From NCBI GenBank assembly GCA_039720395.1, contig CM077827.1, positions 18,153,822 to 18,217,821 on the forward strand: a stretch of DNA of 64,000 bases. The letters run 5' to 3'. How positions within the stretch are numbered: position 1 is the stretch's first letter; every line of letters starts with the position of its first letter. Origin of the DNA: Liquidambar formosana (lineage: Eukaryota; Streptophyta; Magnoliopsida; Saxifragales; Altingiaceae). The position numbers were made by a program, and so were the translations under genes. Shown here one piece after another: positions 16,602 through 64,000 of this stretch. Below the pieces are notes generated by a model, which worked only from the letters and a program-made list of their open reading frames with translations, was not told where the DNA came from and did no database searches.

Positions 16602-17177
16602 TGTCACACCCCATTTTTGCACCACCTCACTAGGGCTCATCATTTCATGCATGTTTTTGTTTTGTTTTTGAGTCTAGTCACTTGCATTAGTTTTCTAGAG
16701 TCACAAGGACAATGGATATGAATTTTGGTTCAAATTGGAGTTGATCTTGAGGGATAATAAGAGCTTTTGTGACTTGAGGGTCATAATCGTCTTTTAAGTC
16801 CCAAACTTTTCATTTGACCTTGGAATGATCTCCAAATTGTCAATTGGAGTTCATATGGATGCATATGAGGTATTTCTAGGTTCAATTTGGTAAGTCAATG
16901 GCTCGGGATTAAAATGGCTCGATGTAGTTCAAGTTGGTTAATTGACCCTTGGGTTAGCTCTAATTGACTCACAATTACCAACCAAATCTTTTCAAATTGA
17001 CTTTCATTAGTCATCATTTTGTACCGGTTGTCATCTTAAGTCCCGTGGCCCTGATGATGAGTTTAGTGTGGTTATTTACGGATTATCCTTGAAGAATTAG
17101 TGCGAATCACAGCATAAGATTTTTGGTTAAAATGAAAAGAAAATTATTTTATTAAATTAGCCATTTTTATCATGACA

Positions 17178-17241
17178 CTAACACGTGTACGTATGTGATG
17201 AGTGTGTGTACGCACATACGATACATGTGCATGCGTGTTAG
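17178..17241 (+). promoter_or_regulatory. G-box palindrome upstream of the alpha LTR TATA box
   Basis: A 64-bp imperfect inverted repeat begins CTAACACGTGTACGTATG and ends GCATGCGTGTTAG. It contains CACGTG and TACGTA, ACGT-core motifs that plant bZIP and bHLH factors bind. It lies 140 bp upstream of the TATA box, is present in all alpha and beta LTRs, and is replaced in gamma by a GC-rich foldback. Confidence 0.6.
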
Positions 17242-17380
17242 CGGTCAGTCTCCCAATTTTTATAAAAGACAATTTCCTTTTCTTATTCAGATTAGAAGTC
17301 TTTTATCATTATAAAATACCTTTTGATTATTCTCCAAAAAAACCTAGTCCAGGAAGGAAAGGGAAACTCCAGATTTCAGC

Positions 17381-17388
17381 TATAAATA
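17381..17388 (+). promoter_or_regulatory. TATA box, alpha 5' LTR
   Basis: TATAAATA in the context AGCTATAAATACTC, with a purine-rich start-site region 30-60 bases downstream. The equivalent boxes are at 31812-31819 (alpha 3' LTR), 51726-51719 and 16229-16222 (beta, minus strand) and 55588-55595 (gamma). Confidence 0.75.
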
Positions 17389-19520
17389 CTCTCTTAATGT
17401 CTTTAAACAAAGGAGAGGAAAAGAGGGTTTGGAGGGAGTGAAATTCGTCATAATTCAGCAGCAGATTTTCTGAAAACCAGCAGTCGTATTTTAATCATAA
17501 CTTTTTCATCCAAAGTCAGAATTTGATGAAATTGGTCTTGTTAGAAAGATAATTCAATTCTCTACAACTTTGTATTTCACAAGCTTTGTCCAAATCCAAC
17601 GTTTTCATACCCAAAAACGCGATTGAAGTTGCTGCTGCTGCAAAGTGACGAAAATCACTCTTCTTTTCTCTTGTTCTCTCTTTGTTTTCTATTTCTTTTC
17701 AAAGTTGAGTGAGTTTTGATCTCTTTGCTGTGATACCACTTTGACAAAGAGGAGGATTCGTGTTGGTTTGATTCACTCTAAAGACCTGAGGAGCCACGAA
17801 CAATTACAAACACAAGGGGAGCCACTTTATACATTAATACTTGAGTGTTTGAGAGAGAATAAGAGAGCGAGACTTGAAGGAGAGCTGGAGTTCTTGCTGT
17901 AGCCTTGGAGAACATTGATTCAAGTCATCCATAAGAGCAAGAGGGAGTTCATACAGCAGCAAGGAAGGCCCTTCCTAAGGTATTCTCCTTCTCTATTCAA
18001 GCTTAAACTAGGTTTTTATATAGGATAGGCCTATTGCATGTTAAAGGTAACTTTTTTATCATGTATTAACACTCTAGCTAGTTAATATACATGGAATATC
18101 TATTGTTTATCTACTGTTTAGCATGCTTTAGGGCTGTCCTTTATGTTTCAATGCATAGTTATGATTCTTGTGCTCCTGTTTGTCCTTGTGCTAGGATTAG
18201 TGTCATTGCATGTTAGAGTTAGGATTTTCATCATGTTATATTGCTTTAGTTAGTTAATATGCATGATTTAATTTCTGTTTAGTTTGGTTTTAGCATGATT
18301 AAAGTATGTTTTGTATGTCTTTAAGCATATTTGTGAGTTTAGGGTTTTAGAGTCATTGTTTTGTGTTTGTTTTCATATAGCATGATAAAGTAGACTTTTT
18401 TATTTGGTTTTTCTTCGTGTTTGCTGTATATGTTTTTCATATGGAGTAAACATGATAGTTTTGCATGCATGTTAGTATGTTTTAGGGTTTTTTATGCATG
18501 ATATGGTTCTAGGAATGTGTTAGGACTTATTATTGTTCGCTGTGTTGCTGTTAGCATGCTTAGTGGATGATTTTTAGGCCATGATACTATTCTGTCCAGA
18601 TTTGCATGTTAGTGTTTTTGCATGGTTTTGAGCACTTGTAAGGGTGCAAATAGGTGTGGTATTTGTCCTATGGCAAATAGGGCTGCTTATGTCTGAAATA
18701 GCTAATGTTTGGAGTAATCGCGCTCAGGTAAGTGGGTGTGAAGGTGCCCCAATTCACCTTTCTTTCTTAACTCATTCTCTTCTTCCTATCTAGGGTTAAT
18801 TTTTAATATGATCCTATGGTTTAATTAGAGGTTTCCTTAACCAACAAAATTCTGGTTTTTATTAAAGTTTCCATTTTGTGGATTTCTTTCCTAAAATCAA
18901 ACTTTCTATCATATTCAACTCTTTTGATCAAATAAGGAAACCTAGGGTTTTAACCATAGGTTTATATTAGGTCTTAACCCTAATTCTAATCGAACTACGT
19001 GGACTTTGATCCATGTATTTCGTTGCATGGTACGTAGGCGCTCTTCGTGAGGCTCAAGTCCGTTCTAGGATCCAAGCATCCTAGGTTTATTTTTGTTTTC
19101 TTTTCTTCTTTTTCTTTTTTCTGTTTTTATTTGCTTATTATGCATGGATGGATGAATGAAATATATGATATGCATGCAATTCTTGTGATGATATACTTGC
19201 TGATTTTTGTATGGGAAAGATCTTAATTTAGCCCAAATGAACTGAGAGACCGAAAGGGTGACATGGGTGCCTATAGGCTTTGCCTAGAACCTTCCCATGT
19301 CATAACTTAGCCTCCGAATCCCCGATTTCTTTGGTTTTCAAAAGATTGGTTTTTGCCTTTCCTTTTTTATGGAGTCATTCAAATTGTTTTCTTAGAACAA
19401 ACTATTTTTAGGGTTTTCCTTGTTTCCTTTAAAAAATAAGGTGGCGACTCCTTTCCTTTTTCTTTTTCAAATCCATTTTCTTTCAATCCCTTGTGGGCCC
19501 AATTTCCGGGGTTCACAGTT

Positions 19521-19538
19521 TGGCGACTCCACTGGGGA
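19521..19538 (+). promoter_or_regulatory. Primer-binding site of alpha (tRNA-Arg-like)
   Basis: TGGCGACTCCACTGGGGA begins three bases after the LTR. It complements the 3' end of a plant tRNA-Arg as I recall that tRNA, with one mismatch; Ogre-type elements are known to use tRNA-Arg. The tRNA assignment should be treated as likely rather than certain. Confidence 0.75.
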
Positions 19539-20393
19539 ATTGTGGGCTAGACTCTATAAAGTTTAATTGGGCTAGGTTAATTTCTTATGTTTAATTAAAA
19601 TCAATCACATTGCATCCGCTTGATTGTGTGCTTTCATTTATTGCATTGTGTGCGCAAACTCTTGCATGTTAGGATCGATGTCCCTCGATGTATCCTTGCC
19701 AACGATCGGCCTAGTCTCAACCTTGGTTTTCCTGATTCCATGTGTTGGGGCGAAAGCTATCAACCTCTCTTGCCTAGTACCCTTGGGCTTGCCCTTGGGT
19801 ATATTAAATGAGTTAATCACGTACTGCTGGACCCACGCGGCGTTCCTGATGCCACATGTGGTTAGGTATAAGGATTGCTCAAGCAAGTGAAGGACCCTAG
19901 CCTACCCTTATCATTAGTCCATATAGACAGACTTGTAGGACACTACGGTCTCACCTTTATGCACCCACAATTGTTTGTAATGATGCTATGCCGTGTTTGT
20001 GGTGTGAGGCTTTATATCTTATGCCCTTAATATTGACCTTTAAACCCTAGCCTTCGTTAAGGCCATGGGTTAGGAGGAATAAATTAAGGAAATAGGATGT
20101 AAAGCTATGTTTGTGATGTACTAGTCCTAGGGGATTAATTAAACCTAATTGAAGGACTCTATGCCCTATTCTTTAAAACATACCCTTAATCCATGACCCC
20201 TGTAAAGGTAATTGGATAAAAGGAATGAATTAATTGAAAATGGTGTAGAGACCGAATTCATTAAGGAAAATATGGAGGTTTAGGACAGATCCTTAGGCTA
20301 AAGGTTAAAACTTTTCTATCCATAGACGTGCTGGCTTGGATCCGCAATCCACAAGGGCGTCTAGTGAGTGTTGAGTCTACCCATCAGACAGAC
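19539..20393 (+). other. Alpha untranslated leader
   Basis: About 850 bp between primer site and gag. It is shared almost unchanged with beta (48723-49566) and its first 400 bp also with gamma (57761-58170). No credible ORF: the 88-codon frame at 19624 starts at GTG and is frame-broken in gamma. Conservation suggests cis-acting roles such as packaging. Confidence 0.6.
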
Positions 20394-23300
20394 ATGGCCG
20401 ACGAAAGAACTAGTGAGGGGCACTTTGACCTTGAGGCTTGCCTGAAAGCCATCATGGCCAAGCTTGACCATACCGCCGAGACATCCGATACCGCATTGAA
20501 AATGGCTCAAGAGAACCAACAGAAGATGGCGGATCTTGAACAAAATGGCTCTAAGGCCCATTCCTCGGGTATACCTCATGGGGCTGGCACCGAAGAGGGA
20601 CCTCAATCCAATGAGAACACCAAGACAAGGGGGGAAAGTAGCTCGAAACCTGAGGTCACCAACCTAGAAGGGGAAGCCAAGGGGAAAGGTACTAGCAGTG
20701 ATTCCGTATTAGCTAGCAAGGTAGAAGCTTTGGAGAGAACCATAAAAGGGATTCGCAGGGCTGATGACATGGTCGATGTGCGGACTCTATCCCTGTTTCC
20801 AACGGCTCGTATTCCACTACAATTCAAGATGCCAGAGTTAGAAAAGTTCGATGGGACGGGTTGCCCTAAGACTCATTTGAAGATGTACGTGCGAGCTATG
20901 CACCCTCGAGGGGCTACTGACGAGCTTTTAGCTCAAATGTTCCATGAAACCTTAGCCACTTCTGCTTTCAAATGGTTCTTATCCTTGGATGAGAATAGAA
21001 CCCGGACTTGGGAAGACATATGCAATGAGTTTTCAGAGCACTACAAGTATAACACAGAGGTGGACGTTACTCGAAGGGACCTAGAAACTACCAAGCAAGG
21101 GGCTCATGAAACTTTCTCCGCTTACATTACAAGGTGGAGACAAAAGGCGTCGAGAATGACGAATAGGCCGAATGAGGAGGACCAAATTCAGTTAGTGGTT
21201 AAGAACCTGCTGCCCGTGTATCACAAGCACCTATTTGCCCACTATTTCCCAAATTTCAAAGCTCTCATTGGGGTTGGCACGCAGGTTGAAGATGCTATCA
21301 ATGATGGGACAATCAAGACTGAGGAAGTGAGGAGTCGCAAGACAAACTTTACTGGGAAGAACAATGCCGAGGTCAACACCATAACTCAACCAATCCAACC
21401 CTTTTCTCTCAATGATGTCAACCCACCTCGCCAATTCACTGACCTATTCATGCCACCAATCGCTGTATTCGCCTTCGCCACCAAGTCCAAGACCTCATTG
21501 ACAAGCAAGTCATTTCACCACCAACCCGTCCAAATGTCACCCGTAATCCTCTCCCATCACACAACAACACACCCCCACCTAACACCATAAATGCCATTGG
21601 GGTTGAATCCTCTCGCCCTCGCCATCCCATAAGACAATACACTCCGCTCCCCATGACCTTAACCCATCTTTTCACCATTTGCCGCAATAACAGCCTTATC
21701 ATGCCACTTCCACCAAAGCCAAGGCCATCAACCCCTCACCAATATTGCCAATACCATCGTGCACCCGGCCATGACACCGAGGCTTGTTCTATACTAAAGA
21801 AGATCATTCAAGACCTCATTGACCAAAAAGTTTTGTTGTTGCCAAAGAAATCTATCCAACAAGAGCTGAAAGAAAGATATGAAGTAGGGGATCCTCAGGT
21901 TGGCCTATTGGGTGAAGCGTCGGGGAAATTCGATTACTATGTGCTGTACTCAAGCCCAAGTCTGATATCAGATGAGCAGATAGTCCCTTCAGGTTGGGAT
22001 GACTTGCTGACAAAGATGGAGAGCATTGACATGATAGAATGGGATGACTTAATGAATGACTCCGAGGAAGTCCATGACATATGGGCTAGCGATGATGAGT
22101 TGGACCATATAACCAGAGGGGGTCGCCATTTCAAGCCTCCCCACCTAGAATCTGAAAATCCGTTGGAAGATTTGGAAGGGCAGAGGCGTCCTAGCTTGCA
22201 AGAAGAAGAGGATGAAGTGCTTAGGCAGCTGAAGAAGACCAATGCCAACATTACTATTTGGGGCTTGCTCATGGCCTCGCATAAGCACAGACAGACTGTG
22301 TTGAAACTGTTGAATCAGATACAAGTGCCTGTTGACACATCCCCCGAGGGATTGGTACATTTGGTGAATCCAACTCCCAAGAACTCAACCATCGTGTTCA
22401 CCGATGTGGACTTACCTAAAAGCGGGCCGAGCCATTCTCAAGCTCTCTATGTGACCGTTGACACTATGGGGAAGAGGGTTCCCACCGTTCTTATCGACAA
22501 TGGGTCCGCACTGAATGTATGTCCTCTCCAAACTGCCACTGTTTTGGGTTTGGGACCCACTGATTTCACGCCATCTGGGCAGACCGTAAGAGCTTATGAC
22601 AACACCCGCCGAGAAGTAATAGGGGTAGTTACTTTGCCTCTTATCATGGGACCCACTGAATTTAGGGTGGAATTCCAAGTGTTGGATGTGCCGTCATGTT
22701 TCAACTTGCTGTTGGGCCGACCTTGGATCCATCCTGTTGGGGCTGTGCCATCTTCACTCCATCAAAAGGTGAAGTTTCCTTATGAAGGAGCCATAGTAAC
22801 GCTTCAAGGGGACTATGAATTGAAACTCGCAGGTGTGCCTATATGTGAGATACAACCCGAATCAGCAGCGATACCGCTATCTGGGTTTGACTATGTCCAA
22901 TGCATTGAGAAAGAGCTCGAAAAGGGTGAATTAATACCCTTGGACTTTTGCCCCCATGGCAACTTGCACGTCGGTGAAATAATGAGAAAGATGAGTTTCT
23001 TTCTAGGCATGGGGCTAGGGCGTCGCCAACAAGGGATCCCTACGTCTATTCAAAGCCGTGTCACCTCATACACCTTCGGGCTAGGATATGAGCCCTCTAG
23101 AAATGATCATGCGGAAATGCTAAAGAGGAACAAGGAGAAAGTAAGAGCCAAAGCCGAGGGAAGGGTGCCAGACCTGAAGATCTCTCCATATCGACCTACT
23201 TTGAATGGTTACTTCGTCAAAGAAGGGGATGATTTTCTATATTGCGGGTTTCCAGAGCCCACCTTTGACCAAGGTACCAAGATCCGAGTTCCAGGTTTTG

Positions 23301-23596
23301 AAATCTTCTTCACCGAATGGTATCCAATCACAGCTGAAATGGTGGATGATGAAGCCATCAATGATGAGTTCTGGGAAAAGAAAGAGGAGGACTGGGCAGA
23401 GAACCTTGATGCAGGGGCTATGACTGAAATGTTCCAAAATATGATCCTCACCGTGGAAGACTCGACCATTGAAGAACTCCAGGGTTCATCCATTAGCCAT
23501 ACTACCATGCCACTTCTGAATTGGTACCTTGAATGTGGTGTCATTGCGGAGATCCATGAAGAAGAAGACCTTGGCCTACCTGATAGCAGCTTGTAG
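20394..23596 (+). pseudogene. Alpha gag-pro, frame-shifted by a 136-bp deletion
   Basis: The likely start is ATG 20394 (MADERTSEG...), matched by ATGs in beta and gamma. The frame runs to 21590, but a deletion at about 21451-21456 moves the correct frame: relative to beta, 136 bp between two AGTGGCAT repeats (beta minus strand) are gone, removing the first of two YCxYH...GH..C zinc-knuckle-like modules. The rest is open from about 21459 to 23596. Gag core (retrotransposon gag family) lies at about residues 145-290. The second knuckle is at 21754-21800. A protease-like motif LIDNGSALNV at about 22492-22521 has Asn where most proteases have Thr or Ser, as is common in this branch. Confidence 0.88.
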
Positions 23597-23781: not shown

Positions 23782-26700
23782 ATGGATATTTATGGCATGG
23801 ATATAGATCCTAGGAACGATGTCCCCCCGGAGCTCGTTGAGCAAAGGAAAAGGGGCGTCACCGAACCTAATATGGATGAATTGGAATCAATTAACTTAGG
23901 GACGAATGAATTGCCAAGAATAGTTAAAATTGGGAAAACCCTCTCCCCCGTTGAAAAAGAAAAGATGATCTCCCTCTTGAAAGCCAACATTATGGCTTTT
24001 GCATGGTCTTATGAAGACATGCCTGGCATTGACCCCGATATTGTGCAACACTATATCCCCACCAATTCCCTAAAGAAGCCGGTAAAGCAGAAACTCAGAA
24101 GATTAAAACCAGAATGGGCTCTAAAAGTAAAAGAAGAGGTAACTAAACAACTAAACGCGGGTTTCCTCCAAGTTGTGGAGTACCCCGAGTGGCTGTCGAA
24201 TATAGTGCCTGTGCCTAAAAAAGATGGGAAAGTAAGGATGTGTGTCGATTTCCGAGATCTCAACGCCGCGAGCCCTAAGGATGACTTTCCTTTACCCCAT
24301 ATCGACGTGTTGGTGGATAGTACAGTGGGACATGCACTCCTCTCCTTCATGGACGGATTCTCCGGGTATAACCAGATAAAGATGGCGCCTCAAGACATGG
24401 AGAAAACAGCCTTTATCACGCAATGGGGAACGTACTGTTACAAGGTAATGCCTTTTGGCTTAAGAAACGCTGGGGCTACTTACCAAAGAGCAGCTACGAC
24501 CTTATTACATGATATGATCCATAAGGAAGTCGAGGTTTACGTCGATGATATGATCGTGAAGTCCGTGGATAGGGAAGGGCATTTCAAGGCACTAGAGAAA
24601 TTCTTAGAGCGAGCAAAAAAGTACAATCTCCGTCTCAACCCACAGAAGTGTGCTTTCGGCGTCAGTGCAGGTAAGCTATTGGGGTTTATGATCACTCAGA
24701 GAGGTATCGAAGTGGACCCAAGGAAGATAAAAGCTATTGTGGAGATGGAGCCGCCTAGCACTGAGAAGCAGATCCGGGGTTTTCTGGGAAGAGTTCAATA
24801 CATAAGCCGATTCATTGCCAACTTAACCATGGTTTGCGAACCAATCTTCAAATTGCTTAAGAAAGGTGTGCCAAAAGTATGGAACGAAGAATGCCAAGAG
24901 GCCTTTGAGACCATTAAGAGATACTTGAGCAATCCTCCAATCTTAGTTCCCCCACGGCAAGGTGCGCCGCTTTTGTTATACTTAACGGTCACCGAAACCG
25001 CGATGGGAGCTTTGTTAGCTCAATATCTCGAAGGGTCTACAAAGGAGAATGCCATCTACTACCTAAGCAAGAAAATGACAGACTATGAAGTGAAGTACAA
25101 TGCAATTGAAAAAGCTTGTGTAGCACTAGTATGGGCGACGCAGAAACTCCGGCACTACATGATGTCCTTCAAAGTGTTCTTGATAAGTCGCATGGACCCA
25201 TTGAAGTACCTGATAGAAAGGTCAGTATTGTCATTCAGAACTACTCGATGGTCAATTCTCCTCAATGAATTCGACATCAAGTACGTGAATCAGAAGTCTA
25301 TCAAGGGGAGCGTCATCGCAGACTACCTAGCCAGCTGTCCTGTGTCATCATCTGCTCCATTCAACGATCAGTTCCCAGACGAGGACGTGCTAGAGATTGG
25401 CAGAAAAATTTGGAGAGTATACTTCGATGGGGCAGCCAATAAGAAAGGTTATGGGATAGGAGTCCTGCTGGTCTCACCTGAAGAGGCATTTACACCGTTG
25501 GCGGTCAAGTTGGGGTTTGAAGCTACCAACAACATTGCTGAATATGAGGCCTGTATCCTAGCACTGGAAGCGGCACTTGAATTGGGGATCAAAGAATCAG
25601 AAGTGTTCGGGGACTCGGCGCTAATCATTTGTCAGATAAAAGGGGAATGGAAAACTCGAGATGAGAAGCTGCTACCCTACCATGCCTACCTGGAAGCTCT
25701 AACCAAGGAGTTCTCAGAGATAGAATTTAACTACCTTTCAAGGAACAAGAACCAGTTCGCCGATGCCTTGGCGACCCTAGCATCCATGGTGGAGATACCT
25801 GAAGGAGGAAATGTGAAGCCATTGGTGATAGAATGTCGAGACAAGCCTGTGTACTGTTGTGCAATCCGAGGAGGAGAAGTGAATGATGGCCGTCCGTGGT
25901 TCCATGACATAAAGAAGTTCATTGAAGAAAGGGAGTACCCAGAAGGAGCATCTCGCATTGATAGAAAAACCCTAAGGCGGTTGGCAAGTCACTATGTACT
26001 TTGTGGAGGAAAGCTATATCGGAGATCATACGACGGGATCCACCTGCTGTGTGTCACCGAGGAGGAAGCCGAGCATCTGATTAAAGAAATCCATGAAGGG
26101 ACAGGGGCTCCGCATATGAATGGCTATATGTTAGCTAAGAAAATCATGAGGCTAGGCTATTACTGGTCTACCATGGAAAGGGACTGCCACGCACATGTCA
26201 AGAAGTGCCACAAATGCCAACTGTTCGCCAGTGGACAACATTTGCCTTCTATGCCTTTAACGAGTATGTCGTCACCTTGGCCATTCGCGGTGTGGGGGAT
26301 AGATATCATCGGACAGATCAAGCCAAAGGCATCAAATGGGCATGAATACATCCTGGTTGCCATCGATTACTTCACTAAATGGGTGGAAGCAGCATCCTTC
26401 AAGACCTTGAATTCCAAGAAGGTAGCACAGTTCATACAGCACAGCATCATCTATCGATATGGGGTACCGCATGAAGTTATCTCAGACAATGGCCAGCACT
26501 TTCAGAAAGAAACCCATGAGCTCTTGCAAAAGTACGGCATAGTTCACCATTTGTCGTCACCATATCGTCCTCAGACTAATGGAGCAGTGGAAGCAGCTAA
26601 CAAGAACATCAAGAAGATACTACAGAAGACGGCGGACTCGCACACAGATTGGCATGAGAAGTTACCGTTAGCTCTATGGGGTTACAGAACATCAATAAGG

Positions 26701-27141
26701 TCGTCAACAGGGGCTACCCCTTATTCTCTAGTTTATGGAATGGAGGCCGTGTTGCCAGTTGAATTAGAAGTTCCTTCATTAAGGGTTGCCGTGGAGAGCC
26801 AGATAACAGAAGTGGACTGGGTTAAGAGTCGCTATGATGAGTTAGCTTTGCTGGATGAAAGGCGTTTAAGGGCGCTGTATCATGTTCAGGGGTATCAACG
26901 GAGGGTTGCCAGAGCATTCAACAAGCATGTCAAAGATCGAGGTCTAAAGAAAGGGGATGTAGTGCTGAAAGAAATCAGAGCTCCAGTGTTCGATCCGCGG
27001 GGAAAATTCAAGCCAAGTTGGGGTGGACCATACATTATCAAAGAAATATTGCCAGCAGGGGCTGTTCGCCTCATGGATTTAGATGGAATTGAGTTCGCTC
27101 GTCCAACTAATGTGGATCAATTGAAGAAATATCATGTTTGA
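23782..27141 (+). CDS. Alpha Pol: reverse transcriptase, two RNase H domains, integrase
   Basis: An intact 1,119-codon frame. RT occupies about residues 110-290 with VDFRDLN, MPFGLRNAG and catalytic YVDD at 253-256. A connection/degenerate RNase H follows at about 390-500. A second RNase H begins with Asp549 (YFDGAANKKG), then NNIAEYEACILALEAA and NQFADALA; such a dual arrangement marks the Tat branch. Integrase has an HHCC zinc finger (about 770-815) and the triad D841, D902, E937, with 34 residues between the last two, one fewer than usual. The GPY-like end (PSWGGPYIIKE) binds DNA. ATG 23782 may be internal if the upstream intron is spliced, since the frame is open back to 23764. Confidence 0.93.
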   Translation: MDIYGMDIDPRNDVPPELVEQRKRGVTEPNMDELESINLGTNELPRIVKIGKTLSPVEKEKMISLLKANIMAFAWSYEDMPGIDPDIVQHYIPTNSLKKPVKQKLRRLKPEWALKVKEEVTKQLNAGFLQVVEYPEWLSNIVPVPKKDGKVRMCVDFRDLNAASPKDDFPLPHIDVLVDSTVGHALLSFMDGFSGYNQIKMAPQDMEKTAFITQWGTYCYKVMPFGLRNAGATYQRAATTLLHDMIHKEVEVYVDDMIVKSVDREGHFKALEKFLERAKKYNLRLNPQKCAFGVSAGKLLGFMITQRGIEVDPRKIKAIVEMEPPSTEKQIRGFLGRVQYISRFIANLTMVCEPIFKLLKKGVPKVWNEECQEAFETIKRYLSNPPILVPPRQGAPLLLYLTVTETAMGALLAQYLEGSTKENAIYYLSKKMTDYEVKYNAIEKACVALVWATQKLRHYMMSFKVFLISRMDPLKYLIERSVLSFRTTRWSILLNEFDIKYVNQKSIKGSVIADYLASCPVSSSAPFNDQFPDEDVLEIGRKIWRVYFDGAANKKGYGIGVLLVSPEEAFTPLAVKLGFEATNNIAEYEACILALEAALELGIKESEVFGDSALIICQIKGEWKTRDEKLLPYHAYLEALTKEFSEIEFNYLSRNKNQFADALATLASMVEIPEGGNVKPLVIECRDKPVYCCAIRGGEVNDGRPWFHDIKKFIEEREYPEGASRIDRKTLRRLASHYVLCGGKLYRRSYDGIHLLCVTEEEAEHLIKEIHEGTGAPHMNGYMLAKKIMRLGYYWSTMERDCHAHVKKCHKCQLFASGQHLPSMPLTSMSSPWPFAVWGIDIIGQIKPKASNGHEYILVAIDYFTKWVEAASFKTLNSKKVAQFIQHSIIYRYGVPHEVISDNGQHFQKETHELLQKYGIVHHLSSPYRPQTNGAVEAANKNIKKILQKTADSHTDWHEKLPLALWGYRTSIRSSTGATPYSLVYGMEAVLPVELEVPSLRVAVESQITEVDWVKSRYDELALLDERRLRALYHVQGYQRRVARAFNKHVKDRGLKKGDVVLKEIRAPVFDPRGKFKPSWGGPYIIKEILPAGAVRLMDLDGIEFARPTNVDQLKKYHV

Positions 27142-27470: not shown

Positions 27471-28757
27471 TCAGTTTTTCTTGGGCTTCTTTGCAGCTCG
27501 CTCTTCAGCTTTCTTCTCTTCTCTTGCATGTCTTCTTTTCTTCCTCAAGTTGTGTTCATAAGCTGCTGTCACTGCTTCCATAATATCTTCTCTGCAAGGT
27601 CCAAGTTCATTGTTCTTGATAAGTCCAAAAATCCTTTCTCTTCGAGTAGTCTCTCTCTCACCTAAATTGCTTTTCAACCATTCCTTATACTCGGGGCTCA
27701 TCATATACGGACCATCAGTATTCGTAACTTGGGTTAGTATCAACTTGCTAGGCCATCGGTCCTTCGCCCAAGTCACTACAGAAAGACCCGCGGGCACCAC
27801 AGGATAGTCACCTTTCAAGGAAGTAGGTATGGTTTGCATGGCGCCCATCTGACGCAGAACCCTTGAAGGCCAATAGAAGGAAGTAGACCTCAGTCCTATG
27901 AGTCTCACCATGGCGCATCCAGAAGTCCGCAGAAGCACCTGGTCACTGCAGCCCCATATGAATACAAACCACTTGACACTCCTCCAAGAAAGGGTTTGGA
28001 AGTAACCTAGCCAATCTCTCAATGAAAATTGCCCAGGTAGTTCAATGCGGCGAAGGCAGTAATGCTGGGGCTTGTATGGTGTAATGGCAACTGGTGACAA
28101 GAAATTCAGTCTTTCAAGCAACCACATCTGCAGTAGAATGGGGCTACCTCCTAAAGGAACCTTTGGGTCCTCATGAGTTTTATCCAAACCATTCAGGGTT
28201 TCAGCTAGCACCATGGGAATCAAGTTATGGCCCTTGGCAAGGAGAGGAATCAAGTCACAGATTTGAACGGGAACATGTGGAGTACCAGTGGAAATAAGAA
28301 AACGACCAATGAGGCAAAAGGCAAGAGCATGCTTAATAGGAAAGGTAAAATTCAGAATACCTTTACTATCACAAGCTAAAAAAGAGGTTGCCAATTTCAT
28401 CAAGTCTACCATATGGTCCTTTACAAACGTAGAGGCATATTGTGAGTGAATCCCAAGTAGATTGGAGAAAGAAGTAAGAAAGCTTGGGCGAGGAGTAGGG
28501 AGAATGAAAGGACCTACTGTTGAAACTCCATACAATGCACAGAATTCCTCCATGGTTGGGCACAGTTCTTCATAGTTGAAGCGGAACACATGAACTTGAG
28601 GATCCCAAAAATATGTAGCAGCAGTCAAGAGGTTCGTTTCAAGCCTCACATGCCTCAAGGAGAGCAATGGATCCAAGCCAAAGCACTTGAACTCAGATTT
28701 TGCTTCAGCACTCATAACTCTCAAAAACCCTCCTAAAAATTTGTCTAGAGCCTCCAT
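27471..28757 (-). CDS. Antisense ORF of alpha, mobile-domain-like protein of unknown function
   Basis: An intact 428-codon ORF on the strand opposite to gag and pol, starting at ATG 28757. A globular part includes YFWDPQVHVFRFNYEELCP and TMEEFCALYGV, a pattern seen in plant proteins of the DUF7745 / plant mobile domain type that are often linked to retrotransposons; I infer this from memory of the family. The C-terminal 25 residues are almost all Lys, Arg, Glu and Ala, a likely nuclear localisation signal. It has its own TATA box 49 bp upstream. The beta homologue is intact too but differs at 22 residues (5%), about three times the difference seen in pol. No catalytic residues are recognised. 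Confidence 0.8.
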   Translation of the reverse strand: MEALDKFLGGFLRVMSAEAKSEFKCFGLDPLLSLRHVRLETNLLTAATYFWDPQVHVFRFNYEELCPTMEEFCALYGVSTVGPFILPTPRPSFLTSFSNLLGIHSQYASTFVKDHMVDLMKLATSFLACDSKGILNFTFPIKHALAFCLIGRFLISTGTPHVPVQICDLIPLLAKGHNLIPMVLAETLNGLDKTHEDPKVPLGGSPILLQMWLLERLNFLSPVAITPYKPQHYCLRRIELPGQFSLRDWLGYFQTLSWRSVKWFVFIWGCSDQVLLRTSGCAMVRLIGLRSTSFYWPSRVLRQMGAMQTIPTSLKGDYPVVPAGLSVVTWAKDRWPSKLILTQVTNTDGPYMMSPEYKEWLKSNLGERETTRRERIFGLIKNNELGPCREDIMEAVTAAYEHNLRKKRRHAREEKKAEERAAKKPKKN

Positions 28758-28813: not shown

Positions 28814-28898
28814 GGGAAAAGGTCACAAATCCAAGTTCAAATAGGAGAAAACCCATCAGAATAGGAAGTTTCCTATTCAAAGTGGGATTTCCGCTTCG

Positions 28899-29219: not shown

Positions 29220-30890
29220 TCAAATCTTGATTTTTCATCCCACTTGGTTGAATATACTCATCACTTGAATACATTCTTCCATTTCAAAAGTGTATTCACT
29301 CTTTGAATATGCTTCTCGGTTTCAAATTCTCATTCCCTATCCTACTTGGTTGAATATATTCATCACTTGAATATATTTTTCTATTTCAAAAGTGTATTCA
29401 CCCTTTGAATATGCTTCTCAGTTTCAAATTCTCATTTTCTATCATACTTGGTTGAATATATTCATCACTTGAATATATTCTTCCATTTCAAAAGCATGTT
29501 CACCCATTGAATATGCTTCCTAGTTTCAGATCCTCATTATCACTTACTTGGTTAAGTATATCCATCGCTTGGGTATATTTCTCCATTTCAATGGTATACT
29601 CATCACTTGAGTATACTTCTCAGATATTTTGCCACTTACTTGGTTAAGTATATCCATCGCTTGGGTATATTTCTCCATTTCAATGGTATGTTCATCACTT
29701 GAACATACTTCTCAGATTATTTGTCACTTACTTGGTTAAATATATTCATCACTTGAATATATTTCTCCATTTCAATGGTATACTCATCACTTGAGTATAC
29801 TTCTCAGATTATTCTCTATCTTACTTGCTTAAGTACATCCATCGCTTGGATATATTTCTCTATTTTAATGGTATGTTTATCACTTAAACATACTTGTCAC
29901 TTACTTGGTTAAGTATATCCATCACTTGGATATATTTCTCTATTTCAATGGTATGTTTATCACTTAAACATACTTGTCACTTACTTGGTTAAGTATATTC
30001 GTGACTAGAATATATTTCTCCATTTCAATGGTGTACTCATCACTTGAGTACACTTCTCAGATTATTCTTATCTTACTTGGTTAAATATATCCGTCGTTTG
30101 GATATATTTCTCCATCTCAATGGTATGCTCATCACTTGAGTGTACTTCTCAGCTTACTTGGTTAAATATATCCATCACTTGGATACATTTCTCCATTTCA
30201 AAAGTATGTTCATCACTTGAACGTACTTCTCAGTCTTTTTCAATCATTAAGTATACTCATCACTTGAGTATATTTCTCAGCATCTTTTTCATCACTTGGT
30301 TAAATATGTTCGTGACCTGAATATATCTCTCCATTTCAAAAGTACACTCATCACTTGAGTACACTTCTCAGATTATTCTTTATCCTACTTGGTTAAATAT
30401 ATCCATCGCTTGGATATATTTCTCCATTTCAATGGTATGCTCACCACTTGAGTATACTTCTCAGATTTCATTCTCAGATTACTTGGTTAAATATATCCAT
30501 CGCTTGGATATATTTCTCCATTTCAATGGTATGCTCACCACTTGAGTATACTTCTCAGATTTCATTCTCAGATTACTTGGTTAAATATATTCGCGACCTG
30601 AATATATTTCTCCATTTCAGTGGTATACTCATCATTTGAGTATACTTCTCAGATATTTTGTCACTTACTTGGTTAAGTATATTCGTGACCTGAATATACT
30701 TCTCCATTTCCAAGGTACGTTCATCACTTGAACGTACTTCTCAGATCTCATTCTCATCACTTGGTTAAATATATTCGTGACTAGAATATATTTCTCCATT
30801 TCAAAAGTATGTTCCTTCGTAGTGGCTTGAATATGCTTCTCTTGACAATCACCAACCCCCAGTGGTTTAAGTATACTCATGACTTGAGTA
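29220..30890 (+). repeat. Hairpin-repeat array of alpha
   Basis: About 1.7 kb made of some forty short palindromes, alternating between two classes at a spacing of 30-40 bases. Each has a stem of 8-9 bp around a near-constant seven-base loop ATCACTT (variants ATCGCTT, GTGACTA). The stems differ but remain complementary: GTATACTC/GAGTATAC (29594-29616), GTATGTTC/GAACATAC (29686-29708), GTATGTTT/AAACATAC (29871-29893), GTGTACTC/GAGTACAC (30031-30053), GTACGTTC/GAACGTAC (30715-30737). Linkers such as TTCTCCATTTCAATG and TTCTCAGAT recur. Tandem repeats in the 3' untranslated region are known for Tat/Ogre elements; the pairing pattern is what stands out. Confidence 0.88.
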
Positions 30891-31019
30891 CACTTCCTTA
30901 TTTCAGTCTCCGGTTTTCAACCTCCCATCATTGTTGGTATCAGTGTGTGATTTCTCCGGGCTTTTTGGCCAAAAATGGGTTGTTCTTTATCATTGGTTCA
31001 CAAGTGTAACTTGTTCGCC

Positions 31020-31032
31020 AATGAGGGGCTTC
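31020..31032 (+). promoter_or_regulatory. Polypurine-tract candidate of alpha
   Basis: AATGAGGGGCTTC ends at the first base of the 3' LTR. Beta has the same string at its 3' LTR (34603-34591, minus strand). It would prime plus-strand DNA, though the purine run is short. Confidence 0.5.
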
Positions 31033-33948
31033 TGTCACACCCCATTTTTGCACCACCTCACTAGGACTCATCATTTCATGCATGTTTTTGTTTTGTTTTT
31101 GAGTCTAGTCACTTGCATTAGTTTTCTAGAGTCACAAGGACAATGGATATGAATTTTGGTTCAAATTGGAGTTGATCTTGAGGGATAATAAGAGCTTTTG
31201 TGACTTGAGGGGCATAATCGTCTTTTAAGTCCCAAACTTTTCATTTGACCTTGGAATGATCTCCAAATTGTCAATTGGAGTTCATATGGATGCATATGAG
31301 GTATTTCTAGGTTCAATTTGGTAAGTCAATGGCTCGGGATTAAAATAGCTCGATGTAGTTCAAGTTGGTTAATTGACCCTTGGGTTAGCTCTAATTGACT
31401 CACAATTACTAACCAAATCTTTTCAAATTGACTTTCATTAGTCATCATTTTGTACCGGTTGTCATCTTAAGTCCCGTGGCCCTGATGATGAGTTTAGTGT
31501 GGTTATTTATGGATTATCCTTGAAGAATTAGTGCGAATCACAGCATGAGATTTTTGGTTAAAATGAAAAGAAAATTATTTTATTAAATTAGCCATTTTTA
31601 TCATGACACTAACACGTGTACGTATGTGATGAGTGTGTGTACGCACATACGATACATGTGCATGCGTGTTAGCGGTCAGTCTCCCAATTTTTATAAAAGA
31701 CAATTTCCTTTTCCTATTCAGATTAGAAGTCTTTTATCATTATAAAATACCTTTTGATTATTCTCCAAAAAAACCTAGTCCAGGAAGGAAAGGGAAACTC
31801 CAGATTTCAGCTATAAATACTCTCTTAATGTCTTTAAACAAAGGAGAGGAAAAGAGGGTTTGGAGGGAGTGAAATTCGTCATAATTCAGCAGCAGATTTT
31901 CTGAAAACCAGCAGTCGTATTTTAATCATAACTTTTTCATCCGAAGTCAGAATTTGATGAAATTGGTCTTGTTAGAAAGATAATTCAATTCTCTACAACT
32001 TTGTATTTCACAAGCTTTGTCCAAATCCAACGTTTTCATACCCAAAAACGCGATTGAAGTTGCTGCTGCTGCAAAGTGACGAAAATCAGTCTTCTTTTCT
32101 CTTGTTCTCTTTTTGTTTTCTATTTCTTTTCAAAGTTGAGTGAGTTTTGATCTCTTTGCTGTGATACCACTTTGACAAAGAGGAGGATTCGTGTTGGTTT
32201 GATTCACTCTAAAGACCTGAGGAGCCACGAACAATTACAAACACAAGGGGAGCCACTTTATGCATTAATACTTGAGTGTTTGAGAGAGAATAAGAGAGAG
32301 AGACTTGAAGGAGAGCTGGAGTTCTTGCTGTAGCCTTGGAGAACATTGATTCAAGTCATCCATAAGAGCAAGAGGGAGTTCATACCGCAGCAAGGAAGGC
32401 CCTTCCTAAGGTATTCTCCTTCTCTATTCAAGCTTAAACTAGGTTTTCATATAGGATAGGCCTATTGCATGTTAAAGGTAACTTTTTTATCATGTATTAA
32501 CACTCTAGCTAGTTAATATACATGGAATATCTATTGTTTATCTACTGTTTAGCATGCTTTAGGGCTGTCCTTTATGTTTCAATGCATAGTTATGATTCTT
32601 GTGCTCCTGTTTGTCCTTGTGCTAGGATTAGTGTCATTGCATGTTAGAGTTAGGATTTTCATCATGTTATATTGCTTTAGTTAGTTAATATGCATGATTT
32701 AATTTCTGTTTAGTTTGGTTTTAGCATGATTAAAGTATGTTTTGTATGTCTTTAAGCATATTTGTGAGTTTAGGGTTTTAGAGTCATTGTTTTGTGTTTG
32801 TTTTCATATAGCATGATAAAGTAGACTTTTTTATTTGGTTTTTCTTCGTGTTTGCTGTATATGTTTTTCATATGGAGTAAACATGATAGTTTTGCATGCA
32901 TGTTAGTATGTTTTAGGGTTTTTTATGCATGATATGGTTCTAGGAATGTGTTAGGACTTATTATTGTTCGCTGTGTTGCTGTTAGCATGCTTAGTGGATG
33001 ATTTTTAGGCCATGATACTATTCTGTCCAGATTTGCATGTTAGTGTTTTTGCATGGTTTTGAGCACTTGTAAGGGTGCAAATAGGTGTGGTATTTGTCCT
33101 ATGGCAAATAGGGCTGCTTATGTCTGAAATAGCTAATGTTTGGAGTAATCGCGCTCAGGTAAGTGGGTGTGAAGGTGCCCCAATTCACCTTTCTTTCTTA
33201 ACTCATTCTCTTCTCCCTATCTAGGGTTAATTTTTAATATGATCCTATGGTTTAATTAGAGGTTTCCTTAACCAACAAAATTCTGGTTTTTATTAAAGTT
33301 TCCATTTTGTGGATTTCTTTCCTAAAATCAAACTTTCTATCATATTCAACTCTTTTGATCAAATAAGGAAACCTAGGGTTTTAACCATAGGTTTATATTA
33401 GGTCTTAACCCTAATTCTAATCGAACTACGTGGACTTTGATCCATGTATTTCGTTGCATGGTACGTAGGCGCTCTTCGTGAGGCTCAAGTCCGTTCTAGG
33501 ATCCAAGCATCCTAGGTTTATTTTTGTTTTCTTTTCTTCTTTTTCTTTTTTCTGTTTTTATTTGCTTATTATGCATGGATGGATGAATGAAATATATGAT
33601 ATGCATGCAATTCTTGTGATGATATACTTGCTGATTTTTGTATGGGAAAGATCTTAATTTAGCCCAAATGAACTGAGAGACCGAAAGGGTGACATGGGTG
33701 CCTATAGGCTTTGCCTAGAACCTTCCCATGTCATAACTTAGCCTCCGAATCCCCGATTTCTTTGGTTTTCAAAAGATTGGTTTTTGCCTTTCCTTTTTTA
33801 TGGAGTCATTCAAATTGTTTTCTTAGAACAAACTATTTTTAGGGTTTTCCTTGTTTCCTTTAAAAAATAAGGTGGCGACTCCTTTCCTTTTTCTTTTTCA
33901 AATCCATTTTCTTTCAATCCCTTGTGGGCCCAATTTCCGGGGTTCACA
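31033..33948 (+). repeat. Alpha 3' LTR
   Basis: Same length (2,916 bp) and ends as the 5' LTR, with about fifteen single-base differences noticed, for example at the positions matching 17110 and 17283. TATA box at 31812-31819. Its promoter points out of alpha through the beta LTR remnant towards beta's plus-strand genes at 37008 and 40201. Confidence 0.95.
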
Positions 33949-33953
33949 GGGTG
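33949..33953. repeat. Target-site duplication of retrotransposon alpha, right
   Basis: GGGTG directly after the LTR end TTCACA, matching 16597-16601. Confidence 0.95.
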
Positions 33954-34590: not shown

Positions 34591-34735
34591 GAAGCCCCTC
34601 ATTGGCGAACAAGTTACACTTGTGAACCAATGATAAAGAACAACCCATTTTTGCTAAAAAGCCTGGAGAAATCACACACTGTAACCAAACAATGACAGGA
34701 GGTTGAAAACCGGAGACTGAAATAAGGAAGTGTAC
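34591..34735 (-). other. Beta polypurine-tract candidate and 3' spacer
   Basis: On the minus strand AATGAGGGGCTTC (34603-34591) abuts the 3' LTR. The remaining spacer matches alpha 30890-31019. No gene is seen. Confidence 0.5.
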
Positions 34736-36379
34736 TCAAGTCATGAGTATACTTAAACCACTGGGGGTTGGTGATTGTCAAGAGAAGCATATTCAAGCCA
34801 CTACGAAGGAACATACTTTTGAAATGGAGAAATATATTCTAGTCACGAATATATTTAACCAAGTGATGAGAATGAGATCTGAGAAGTACGTTCAAGTGAT
34901 GAACGTACCTTGGAAATGGAGAAGTATATTCAGGTCACGAATATATTTAACCAAGTAAGTGACAAAATATCTGAGAAGTATACTCAAATGATGAGTATAC
35001 CACTGAAATGGAGAAATATATTCAGGTCACGAATATATTTAACCAAGTAATCTGAGAATGAAATCTGAGAAGTATACTCAAGTGGTGAGCATACCATTGA
35101 AATGGAGAAATATATCCAAGCGATGGATATCTTTAACCAAGTAGGATAAGAATAATCTGAGAGGTGTATTCAAGTGATGAGTGTACTTTTGAAATGGAGA
35201 AATATATTCAGGTCACGAACATATTTAACCAAGTGATGAAAAAGATGCTGAGAAATATACTCAAGTGATGAGTATACTTAATGATTGAAAAAGACTGAGA
35301 AGTACGTTCAAGTGATGAACACACTTTTGAAATGGAGAAATGTATCCAAGTGATGGATATATTTAACCAAGTAAGCTGAGAAGTACACTCAAGTGATGAG
35401 CATACCATTGAAATGGAGAAATATATCCAAACGACGGATATATTTAACCAAGTAAGATAAAAATAATCTGAGAAGTGTACTCAAGTGATGAGTACACCAT
35501 TGAAATGGAGAAATATATTCTAGTCACGAATATACTTAACCAAGTAAGTGACAAGTATGTTTGAGTGATAAACATACCATTGAAATAGAGAAATATATCC
35601 AAGTGATGGATATACTTAACCAAGTAAGTGACAAGTATGTTTAAGTGATAAACATACCATTGAAATAGAGAAATATATCCAAGTGATGGATATACTTAAC
35701 CAAGTAAGTGACAAGTATGTTTAAGTGATAAACATACCATTGAAATAGAGAAATATATCCAAGCGATGGATATACTTAAGGAAGTAAGATAGAGAATAAT
35801 CTGAGAAGTGTACTCAAGTGATGAGTACACCATTGAAATGGAGAAATATATTCTAGTCATGAATATATTTAACCAAGTAAGTGACAAATATTCTAAGAAG
35901 TATGTTCAAGTGATGAACATACTATTGAAATGGAGAAATATACCCAAGCGATGGATATACTTAACCAAGTAAGTGGCAAAATATCTGAGAAGTATACTCA
36001 AGTGATGAGTATACCATTGAAATGGAAAACATATACCCAAGTGGTGGATATACTTAACCAAGTAAGTGACAAAATATCTGAGAAGTATGTTCAAGTGATG
36101 AACATACCATTGAAATGGAGAAATATATTCAAGTGATGAATATATTTAACCAAGTAAGTGATAATGAGGATCTGAAACTAGGAAGCATATTCAATGGGTG
36201 AACATGCTTTTGAAATGGAAGAATATATTCAAGTGATGAATATATTCAACCAAGTATGATAGAGAATGAGAATTTGAAGCTGAGAAGCATATTCAAAGAG
36301 TGAATACACTTTTGAAATGGAAGAATATATTCAAGTGATGAGTATATTCAACCAAGTGGGATGGAAAATCAAGATTTGA
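34736..36379 (-). repeat. Hairpin-repeat array of beta
   Basis: The same array as in alpha, in reverse orientation. It has the same alternating palindromes with loop AAGTGAT on this strand (ATCACTT in element sense) and linkers CATTGAAATGGAGAAATAT. Some units are gained, lost or changed relative to alpha, and stems again mostly stay complementary. It holds no credible ORF; the 60-70-codon frames are by-products of the repeats. Confidence 0.87.
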
Positions 36380-40200: not shown

Positions 40201-41487
40201 ATGGAGGCTCTAGACAAATTTTTAGGAGGGTTTTTGAGAGTTATGAGTGCTGAAGCAAAATCTGAGTTCAAGTGCTTTGGCTTGGATCCATTGCTCTCCT
40301 TGAGGCATGTGAGGCTTAAAACGAACCTCTTGACTGCTGCTACATATTTTTGGGATCCTCAAGTTCATGTGTTCCGCTTCAACTATGAAGAACTGTGCCC
40401 AACCATGGAGGAATTCTGTGCATTGTATGGAGTTTCAACGGTAGGTCCTTTCATTCTCCCTACTCCTCGCCCAAGCTTCCTTACTTCTTTCTCCAATTTA
40501 CTTGGGGTTCACCAACAATATGCCTCTACGTTTGTAAAGGACCATATGGTAGACTTGATGAAATTGGCAACTTCTTTCTTGGCCTATGATAGTAAAGGTA
40601 TTCTGAAATTTACCTTTCTTATTAAGCATGCACTTGCCTTTTGCCTCATTGGTCGTTTCCTTATTTCCACTGGTACTCCACATGTTCCCATACAAATTTG
40701 TGACTTGATTCCTCTCCTTGCCAAGGGCCATAACTTGGTTCCCATGGTGCTAGCTGAAACCCTGAATGGTTTGGATAAAGTCCATGAGGACCCAAAGGTT
40801 TCCTTAGGAGGTAGCCCCATTCTACTGCAGATGTGGTTGCTTGAAAGACTGAATTTCTTGTCACCAGTTGCCATTACACCGTACAAGCCCCAGCATTACT
40901 GCCTTCGCCGCATTGAACTGCCTGGGCAATTTTCATTGAGAGATTGGCTAGGTTACTTCCAAACCCTTTCATGGAGGAATATCAAGTGGTTTGTTTTCAT
41001 ATGGGGTTGTAGCGAACAGGTGCTTCTGCGAACTTCTGGATGCGCCATGGTGAGACTCATAGGACTGAGGTCTACTTCCTTCTATTGGCCTTCAAGGGTT
41101 CTTCGTCAGATGGGTGCCATGCAAACCATACCTACTTCCTTGAAAGGTGACTATCCTGTGGTGCCTGCGGGTCTTTCTGTAGTGACTTGGGCGAAGGACC
41201 GATGGCCTAGAAAGCTGACACTAACCCAAGTTACGAATACTGATGGTCCATATATGATGAGCCCCGAGTATAAGGAATGGTTGATAAGCAATTTAGGTGA
41301 GAGAGAGACTACTCGAAGAGAAAGGATTTTTGGTCTTATCAAGAATAACGAACTTGGATCTTGCAGAGAAGATATTATGGAAGCAGTGACAGCAGCTTAT
41401 GAACATGACTTGAGGAAGAAAAGAAGACACGAAAGAGAGAAGAAGAAAGCTGAGGAGCGAGCTGCAAGGAAGCTCAAGAAAAACTGA
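40201..41487 (+). CDS. Antisense ORF of beta, mobile-domain-like protein of unknown function
   Basis: An intact 428-codon homologue of the alpha antisense ORF, same length, same start context and same basic tail. It differs from alpha at 22 residues spread over the protein, six of them in the last 40 residues. It runs opposite to beta's gag and pol and ends about 350 bp beyond the pol stop, so transcripts from both strands would converge. Function unknown; an accessory or chromatin-related role is only a guess from the plant mobile domain resemblance. Confidence 0.8.
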   Translation: MEALDKFLGGFLRVMSAEAKSEFKCFGLDPLLSLRHVRLKTNLLTAATYFWDPQVHVFRFNYEELCPTMEEFCALYGVSTVGPFILPTPRPSFLTSFSNLLGVHQQYASTFVKDHMVDLMKLATSFLAYDSKGILKFTFLIKHALAFCLIGRFLISTGTPHVPIQICDLIPLLAKGHNLVPMVLAETLNGLDKVHEDPKVSLGGSPILLQMWLLERLNFLSPVAITPYKPQHYCLRRIELPGQFSLRDWLGYFQTLSWRNIKWFVFIWGCSEQVLLRTSGCAMVRLIGLRSTSFYWPSRVLRQMGAMQTIPTSLKGDYPVVPAGLSVVTWAKDRWPRKLTLTQVTNTDGPYMMSPEYKEWLISNLGERETTRRERIFGLIKNNELGSCREDIMEAVTAAYEHDLRKKRRHEREKKKAEERAARKLKKN

Positions 41488-62414: not shown

Positions 62415-62700
62415 CTCTCGAGTATTCACATGTACTCACCCCGAGTATTCACATATACTCACCCCGAGTATTCACCAGTACTCACCCCGAGTATTCACCA
62501 ATACTCACCCTAAGTATTCACCCATATTCATCCCCGAGTATTCACCAATACTCACCCTGAGTATTCACCCCTACTCATCCCCGAGTATTCACATGTACTC
62601 ACTCCGAGTATTCACCTCTACTCATCCTTGAGTATTCACATGTACTCACTCCGAGTATTCATCTCTACTCGTCCCTAAATATTCACCAATACTCTCCTCT
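62415..62700 (+). repeat. Gamma hairpin array, first section (GAGTATTCAC units)
   Basis: About twelve units of 22-25 bp, each GAGTA-TTCACnnn-TACTC, for example 62419-62437. Stem GAGTA/TACTC is nearly constant here and the loop starts TTCAC. Confidence 0.85.
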
Positions 62701-63475
62701 CGAGCATTGACCCTTGTTCGTATTGATTCCAAACCCCTTCATCATGCCTCCTCTATTCATATGTTATTGTTTTAGGTATTGACTTCTACCTATGCAATCT
62801 CTCGGCATTCTTTGAGTATTGACCCCTACTCATCACCAACAGTGACTTTTGTTCATATAGTGAGTATTGACTCCTACTCATTTCAAGCATTGACCTTTGC
62901 TTATATACATTTTACCTTGAGCATTGACCCTTGCTCGAATAATTTTCTCTGTGAGTATTGAATCCTACTCATTTCAAGCATTGACCTTTGCTTATATACA
63001 TTTTATCTTGAGCATTGACCCTTGCTCGAATGATTTTCTCGGTGAGTATTGAATCCTACTCATTTCAAGCATTGACCTTTGCTTATATACATTTTATCTT
63101 GAGCATTGACCCTTGCTCGAATGATTTTCTCAGTGAGTATTGAATCCTACTCATTTCAAGCATGGACCTTTGCTTATATACATTTTATCTTGAGCATTGA
63201 TCCTTGCTCGAATAATTTTCTCTGTGAGTATTAAATCCTACTCATTTCAAGCATTAACCTTTGCTTATATACATTTTATCTTGAGCATTGACCCTTGCTC
63301 GAGTGATTTTCTCTGTGAGTATTGAATCCTACTCATTTCAAGCATTGACCATTGCTTATATACATTTTATCTTAAGCATTGACCCTTGCTCGTATGACTT
63401 TCTCTGTGAGTATTGAATCCTACTCATTTCAAGCAATGACCCTTGCTCGTAAGTTTTTCCTTATGAGTATTGATC
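62701..63475 (+). repeat. Gamma hairpin array, 91-bp higher-order repeat
   Basis: GTGAGTATTGA recurs at 62951, 63042, 63133, 63224, 63315 and 63406, an exact 91-bp period. Each unit contains three small palindromes with different stems and a shared loop TTGACCYT-like: GAGTA/TACTC (62953-62970), AAGCA/TGCTT (62885-62902) and GAGCA/TGCTC (62919-62936). GGTA/TACC occurs at 62775-62790. Confidence 0.9.
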
Positions 63476-64000
63476 TTTACTCATAGCAAGCATTGACCCT
63501 TGCTTATGTGTTTTTAAGTATTGACTTCTATTCATGGAATTTCTTTTTAGATTTTCAGTATGGATGTTGAATTCTATCCATCATGGGTTCTCGTTTGAGT
63601 AATGACTCTTACCCATACGATGTCTTATTGGCTCACCTGAGTATTGACCTATACTCATTCCGAGTACTGATATATACTCATCCTAAGTATTGACCCATTC
63701 TTACCCTGAATATTATCTCATATTCATCTTGAGTATTGACCCATACTCACCCTATGTATTGACCCGTACTGATTCTAATCATTAAAGCATATTTGTCTCG
63801 AGTATTGACTAGTACTCATCCCGAGTGTTGACCTTCACTCTGAATACTGATTCCTATTCCTTTCGAGTATTGACTGGTACTCACTCCGAGTGTTGACCTC
63901 CACTCATATTCATCCCTACTCCTTTCAAGTATTGACTATTACTCACCCTGAGTATTGACCTTCACTCCCAATACCGATTCTCTTCGAGTATTGACTTGTA
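63476..64000 (+). repeat. Gamma hairpin array, irregular section to window edge
   Basis: Irregular units with loop TTGAC and varied stems, including ATGGAT/ATCCAT (63560-63581) and GAATA/TATTC (63842-63859). It continues past the window edge. Confidence 0.82.

Follow-up and report, generated by a model that had tools for sequence, protein, structure and literature searches.

What keeps the two arms of a palindrome matched when both arms keep changing? This question is raised by a locus of the Liquidambar formosana genome, where a row of small palindromes with jointly changing arms lies in the 3' part of an LTR retrotransposon. We analyzed it within a window of 64,000 nucleotides (the whole stretch of DNA under study) and among related arrays of the 718-Mb genome searched. 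The reading that we favor, with a probability of about 0.45, is that selection for base pairing maintains the array as a row of small hairpins, formed by the genomic RNA of the element in its 3' untranslated part.

The array belongs to a Ty3/gypsy LTR retrotransposon that we call alpha (16602-33952, plus strand; the family names alpha to epsilon were coined in this analysis), flanked by the target-site duplication GGGTG. Its LTRs (5', 16602..19521; 3', 31033..33952) are 2920 bp each and 99.42% identical, with 17 differing positions (2903 of 2920 shared). Right after the 5' LTR stands TTTGGCGACTCCACTGGGGA, a candidate tRNA-Arg primer binding site; a site of this type is reported for Ogre. Downstream, all on the plus strand, come a gag ORF (20328..21590; Retrotrans_gag, 40.8 bits), a second ORF (21653..23596) with a weak G-patch match (20.1 bits, below the Pfam cut-off of 22), and pol (23782..27141), with reverse transcriptase, two RNase H domains and integrase. 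The two RNase H domains (RT_RNaseH at 395-497 and RVT_3 at 548-666) both exceed their cut-offs, and the available part of one source gives dual RNase H as a feature of the Tat lineage and describes plant mobile domains in Gypsy elements (PMC9289625). Between pol and the 3' LTR, the position known from Tat elements, a 428-aa ORF on the minus strand (27471..28757) encodes a plant mobile domain (PMD) and DUF7745. It is followed by the hairpin array (29220..30894, plus strand) in the 3' untranslated region, the polypurine tract AATGAGGGGCTTC and, directly after it, the 3' LTR. Judged from this structure, alpha is probably a Tat/Ogre-like element; it would be atypical as a Retand, since Retand elements, in the accessible text of PMC11963269, mostly carry TRP28 at the place of the antisense ORF.

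Alpha is inserted into the 3' LTR of a sister element, beta, which runs on the minus strand from ~52734 down to ~14111 and is flanked by CATTG. Beta has its own antisense PMD ORF (40201..41487, plus strand, beta itself being on the minus strand) and an array of 34 units homologous to that of alpha (34729..36349, minus strand). The antisense ORF is intact in both elements, with a dN/dS of 0.20 for the pair. Alpha and beta diverge by 1.46% in the LTR, 2.89% in pol and 4.43% in the antisense ORF, whose synonymous divergence of 0.124 is high next to the LTR and pol values. The predicted structure of the antisense protein was set aside (mean pLDDT 44.1, pTM 0.28). A related third element, gamma (LTR start at 54591, gag at 58828), has an LTR 85% identical to that of alpha over 421 bp and an array of other sequence (62419..64000, plus strand) that continues past the window end. 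A 182-bp tandem repeat in three copies (55857-56402) lies inside the stretch taken as the gamma LTR. Elsewhere in the window there are endogenous caulimovirid pieces (movement protein and coat protein domain, 2876-6427), and caulimovirid repeats at 1-14044 and 52734-54599 occur in several copies, some inverted, 99% alike.

In the alpha array, the seven stem versions named in the earlier note are all present within 29220-30890 and perfectly complementary: GTATACTC at 29594 and 29778, GTATGTTC at 29686, GTATGTTT at 29871 and 29951, GTGTACTC at 30031, GTACGTTC at 30715, and the types AATATATTC and AATATATCC in several units each. The row of hairpins that it described is real, but the "some forty" of them came down to 35, plus one further B unit at ~30806-30837 with an expanded, 14-nt loop. 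These 35 fall into two paralogous unit types, A (17 units) and B (18 units), which take turns along the array, the period being 80-102 bp in most cases. Counting Watson-Crick hairpins with 7 bp or more and loops of 4-9 gave 20 in alpha, compared with a mean of 0.64 and a maximum of 3 in 50 dinucleotide shuffles, and 23 in beta (shuffle mean 0.58). Control stretches from the LTR, pol and the 5' part gave 1, 0 and 1.

Folding against shuffles, which the note had proposed as a check, bore out this picture: the sense strand of the alpha array folds to -438.5 kcal/mol versus -221.5 +/- 9.1 (z -23.9; base-pair span at most 100, 20 shuffles), and the antisense strand reaches z -11.9 (20 shuffles), while LTR and pol controls (span 60) stay at z -1.5 and +1.5. 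Most A units fold into an 11-bp stem with a 5-nt loop, followed at its base by an internal loop (2x2) and then a TGG/CCA helix of 3 bp; in B units the stem has 10-11 bp and likewise carries a loop of 5 nt. The motif ATCACTT had been read as a constant loop. In the folded units its outer A and T are the closing pair, so the true loop has 5 nt, and it is near-constant in B units only. Among 640 A units of 38 arrays, the loop had a mean entropy of 0.65 bit, compared with 0.34-0.35 for the stem arms and 0.38-0.48 for the flanks; because A loops vary more than the flanks, we dropped the constant loop as a key feature. Moreover, in the same units the outermost A pair is a further covarying pair (A-T 535, G-C 71, G.T 28, A.C 5, other 1).

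Those 38 arrays, the alpha-type set, are alpha, beta and 36 others (L014-L049; L036 has only 6 units), all 36 from contig C1 and taken among the places listed for an exact 17-base B-unit pattern, which fixes part of the B unit in the sampled arrays and occurs at 4642 places in the genome. With a unit finder (a profile built from alpha and beta units) they were cut into 1294 units, 640 A and 654 B, with 134 distinct stems. An 18-base unit word was met in viral contigs at five loci, with one match each, which we take as chance. Pairing was compared with a tree null in the 76 unit variants that occur in three or more of the 38 arrays. This null kept the number of changes per column, placed changes independently and let the arms evolve separately (1000 simulations), on one tree built from all columns and one from non-stem columns; both are FastTree trees of short units that also recombine, and copies of one family are not independent.

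Results showed that 97.8% of stem cells are paired, versus 85.0% (all-column tree) and 80.9% (non-stem tree) in the null, a level reached in 0 of 1000 simulations each. The covariation score for A and B together was 0.485 versus 0.278 and 0.330 (reached in 5/1000 and 8/1000), and the count of double-changed cells was reached in 16/1000 and 88/1000. The covariation score of B units alone was reached in 0/1000 and 4/1000 simulations; covariation was weaker in A units alone, with 14/1000 and 59/1000. Shifting the partner by 1-3 columns lowered pairing to 22-54% (79 variants). Within the window, B units were 97.8% paired versus 91.6% in column shuffles (0/500), with 6 pairs changed on both sides versus 2.4 (0/500). 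In the A units of the window, percent paired and score exceeded all 500 column shuffles, and the pairs changed on both sides, 3 versus 2.1, were equalled in 154/500. Lack of covariation beyond phylogeny had been given as what would overturn the hairpin reading; in this tree-null form both pairing and covariation are in excess. Thus pairing is preserved beyond common descent.

These data bear on the simplest alternative, that chance palindromes were spread by duplication and unit exchange, with no present selection and no special process. The spread did clearly go through duplication. Independent changes of both arms are few, with same-branch changes from pair to pair making up 5 of 48 parsimony stem changes on the all-column tree and 17 of 86 on the non-stem tree. 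Moreover, in gamma- and delta-type units the covariation score alone is not clearly above the tree null (24/1000 and 111/1000 for gamma, 66/1000 and 108/1000 for delta), so that covariation beyond phylogeny is clear for alpha only. Pairing itself nevertheless exceeds the tree null in every run (0-2/1000), for units of the alpha, gamma and delta types alike; broken stem types are not amplified, and the same position is repeatedly occupied by hairpin arrays that differ in sequence. Together, these results make inheritance alone quite improbable. The claim that tandem duplication would not give such stems can be kept for the origin of the stem versions and has to be given up for their spread. The one two-sided alpha-beta difference (29780/29798) is joined by a changed neighboring loop, which speaks for spread by copying; we rejected it as a new compensatory change, as it is probably a copied unit.

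We also looked at which mismatches arise and which are kept. Among 81 private stems (found in one array each), 68 have a single-step parent, and the changes from the paired state are 20 G.T, 16 A.C and 23 transversions; changes private to one array look neutral. The 53 stems shared by at least 2 arrays hold 58 G.T, 18 A.C and 5 transversion cells (Fisher, G.T vs rest p 1.3e-5, G.T vs A.C p 0.03; at the cut-off of at least 3 arrays, p 6.8e-5 and 0.066). When single steps are counted in stems of three or more arrays, G.T (8) and A.C (7) come out even, hence the strand signal rests on amplified versions. The excess of G.U in the sense strand was dropped as a proof of RNA function, given these equal single steps and its absence in gamma. 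Within arrays, none of 13 stem types with an A.C or transversion mismatch was amplified, compared with 11 of 27 paired types (Fisher p 0.007): unit types multiply within arrays only while still pairing. The first B pair is G.T in 261 of 409 B units (22 arrays). On the recent time scale, private unit changes in the 38-array set revealed no clear stem constraint, with 59 in 18 stem columns and 109 in 30 other columns. Between alpha and beta, 10 stem pairs changed, 9 on one side (6 giving A.C, 2 G.T and 1 transversion) and 1 on both, in a count that leaves out 29378-29540, put out of register by the aligner. In 1000-base stretches, the sense strand had the lower z in 11 of 12 stretches of alpha, 3/3 of epsilon, 2/3 of gamma, 9/22 of delta and 0/2 of others, values that are noisy as they come from 12 shuffles each. 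Altogether, the strand-specific G.U signature is weak in alpha and absent in gamma, and the comparison of strands by folding gives a mixed picture across the families.

A process that regenerates palindromes by copying one arm from the other, either by mismatch repair within a hairpin or when reverse transcriptase switches template on a folded strand, would keep the arms matched without any selection for function. It would yield perfect arms at the level of DNA or RNA alike and would act in every family, as the lack of a strand preference in gamma and delta would also have it. Such correction should erase G.T pairs, which instead persist and multiply. The inverted loop, AAGTGAT, is absent from the loop tables of alpha-type arrays. 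Moreover, stem length is kept, A units leave their 2x2 internal loop unpaired, and possible intermediates are seen. We therefore regard such copying as unlikely to explain the array.

The search beyond alpha-type units showed that hairpins are not tied to one sequence. Gamma stems read, among others, GAGTA/TACTC, GAGCA/TGCTC, AAGCA/TGCTT or GAGTG/CACTC, with a loop of TTGACC or TTCACC plus 2-4 bases, and the gamma-type pattern occurs at 243 places in the genome. We took 14 gamma-type loci, 6 of a first 10 (the other 4 overlapping those) and 8 of a second set; they hold 13-30 hairpins of at least 6 bp versus shuffle means of 2.8-5.2, each above the maximum of 10 shuffles, and in 12 of the 14 a polypurine-tract/LTR junction follows the array. 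Among distinct gamma-type units, the letters of the two arms correspond at two pairs (odds ratios of 105 and 6.3, uncorrected for descent), and 91.6% of pairs are formed versus 69-70% in the tree null (0/1000); their shared stems showed no G.T preference (8 G.T, 14 A.C). Gamma-type arrays of L055, L057, L058 and L059 precede an LTR starting TGTCACACCCC, as in alpha, and at 8 other gamma-type junctions the LTR starts TGTAGACAC. Array type and LTR type are thus not strictly linked, which suggests array exchange between families. The stretch 62419-64000 also carries the words TTGACC/TTGACT 26 times, all of them on the plus strand. These words resemble the W-box of WRKY factors; among the papers listed for this idea, none concerned a W-box-like array in a transposon.

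So that hairpins played no part in the choice, a further sample was drawn solely by the polypurine-tract/LTR junction, taking the first 30 of its 206 places. Hairpins with 7 bp or more exceeded all 20 shuffles in 24 of the 30 upstream stretches versus 11 of the 30 adjoining LTR stretches (paired Wilcoxon p 1.3e-8, in which copies within one family are not independent), meaning that the adjoining LTR is not hairpin-free either; with a looser hairpin setting, 26 of the 30 upstream stretches exceeded the maximum of 8 shuffles. The sample consists of 22 delta, 3 epsilon and 3 gamma-like loci and 2 that are neither (L071, L097). The delta hairpin, GTRTG-TTTAAA-TGA...TCA-CAYAC, switches from GTATG/CATAC to GTGTG/CACAC, with A..T in 15, A..C in 3, G..T in 2 and G..C in 31 distinct units, and its pairing is 97.9% versus 88-91% in the tree null (1/1000 and 2/1000). 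Delta loci lie within L068-L096, and L068 has several different hairpins per 161-bp unit. Epsilon (L079, L086 and L088) has TTGAGTA/TACTCAA stems. Therefore, arrays with unlike hairpin sequences share one defined place in these elements.

A function of the DNA itself, with the palindromes as dimeric protein sites or as cruciform-forming DNA, could take the form of a regulatory array fronting the antisense gene or of a target for an anti-silencing protein like the VANC arrays. The alpha array does lie upstream of an intact antisense ORF under the low dN/dS given above, and in the available text of PMC7264820 the antisense gene of maize Grande is transcribed from an upstream promoter. VANC proteins bind YAGTATTAY in tandem arrays of the non-coding parts of VANDAL elements, according to the sections available of PMC5735166, and gamma units, which show no strand preference, partially resemble that motif with AGTATT followed by GAC or AAC. 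The same sections report the VANC motif in arrays of one orientation rather than as palindromes. A sequence-reading dimer should fix each arm and has no need for many stem sequences, so that the covariation of the arms at most stem positions speaks against such a dimer; alpha, moreover, amplifies stems containing G.T and none containing A.C. In the window, the gamma array comes without a detected antisense ORF: tblastn with alpha pol and the alpha antisense ORF gave no significant match in 57501-64000 (best E 0.16 and 0.36). This points to an array independent of the antisense gene and fits an RNA role better than one tied to that gene. We consider a DNA-level function doubtful.

A role as small-RNA hairpins, also raised in the earlier note, found no support, as no Rfam family reached its gathering score in the window (Rfam 15 against the whole window, 0 matches), with 5 sub-threshold matches at 28800-31100. 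Just before the array, a longer imperfect hairpin (29037-29111) has sub-threshold microRNA-precursor matches (26.2 bits vs a gathering score of 64).

Coming back to hairpins selected for pairing in the genomic RNA, we propose that the units spread through tandem duplication and exchange, that their stems would drift via transitions, and that the strand under selection would be the sense RNA. Arms that switch together to many sequences, G.U-containing versions that persist and multiply in alpha, and the better folding of the sense strand in alpha and epsilon point to such selection. Doubt comes from gamma and delta, which show no strand preference, and from the two rivals, palindromes acting as DNA and copying from one arm to the other, under which the arms would stay matched as well. 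The many copies might jointly serve the RNA cycle of the element, for instance, by analogy, by offering Gag many places to dock during packaging or dimerization; alternatively, they might act as a structured spacer next to the polypurine tract. As a working model, the array would be a redundant set of docking or structural hairpins with a putative partner, and such redundancy would account for the tolerance of individual broken hairpins.

For Tat elements, it is established that tandem arrays can lie between pol and the 3' LTR (PMC11963269, PMC7004042, PMC3305785). In the accessible parts of these papers, about half of the recently active Retand elements have them (PMC11963269, which describes both origin and function as unknown), Ogre elements from Lathyrus and soybean have them too (PMC7004042, PMC3305785), and Tat 3' repeats are described as common and as a source of plant satellite DNA (PMC7004042). 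The alpha array agrees with the repeats of Ogre, Retand and Grande in its place, tandem arrangement, family specificity and variable copy number, and differs from them in that its units are hairpins with covarying arms. The terms "hairpin" and "secondary structure" have 0 occurrences each in the available text of PMC7004042 and PMC3305785, and the open-access papers listed on the subject showed no report of covarying hairpin arrays in Tat-type elements. Tandem arrays before the 3' LTR of Tat elements are thus known, and what appears to be new, judging from sequence, is that their units are covarying hairpins. The data suggest that the repeat region before the tail end of the element may hold selected structure. 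We advance tentatively that, at least in this plant genome, the "hypervariable" repeats of the Tat 3' UTR may be structural RNA modules: families that differ in repeat sequence would each retain covarying hairpins next to the polypurine tract, with a sequence that turns over and an architecture that is selected. If pairing and not sequence is constrained, this would explain why a function was missed, as alignments look hypervariable with the structure kept, and it would have consequences for the satellite DNAs to which such arrays give rise. With thousands of copies per genome allowing strong covariation tests, the question is testable with ordinary tools.

The target arrays of VANC in Arabidopsis VANDAL elements are alike in being tandem, non-coding, fast-changing and part of a transposon with an accessory protein, and, in the sections available, belong to DNA transposons and consist of a 9-base motif in one orientation bound as DNA (PMC5735166). 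By contrast, alpha has covarying palindromes, is an LTR element and encodes a plant-mobile-domain protein. The packaging signals recognized by MS2-type coat proteins and by retroviral Gag are several small stem-loops in the genomic RNA; the likeness to alpha would be one of function only. The alpha array is 3'-terminal, and its loops vary between units and families.
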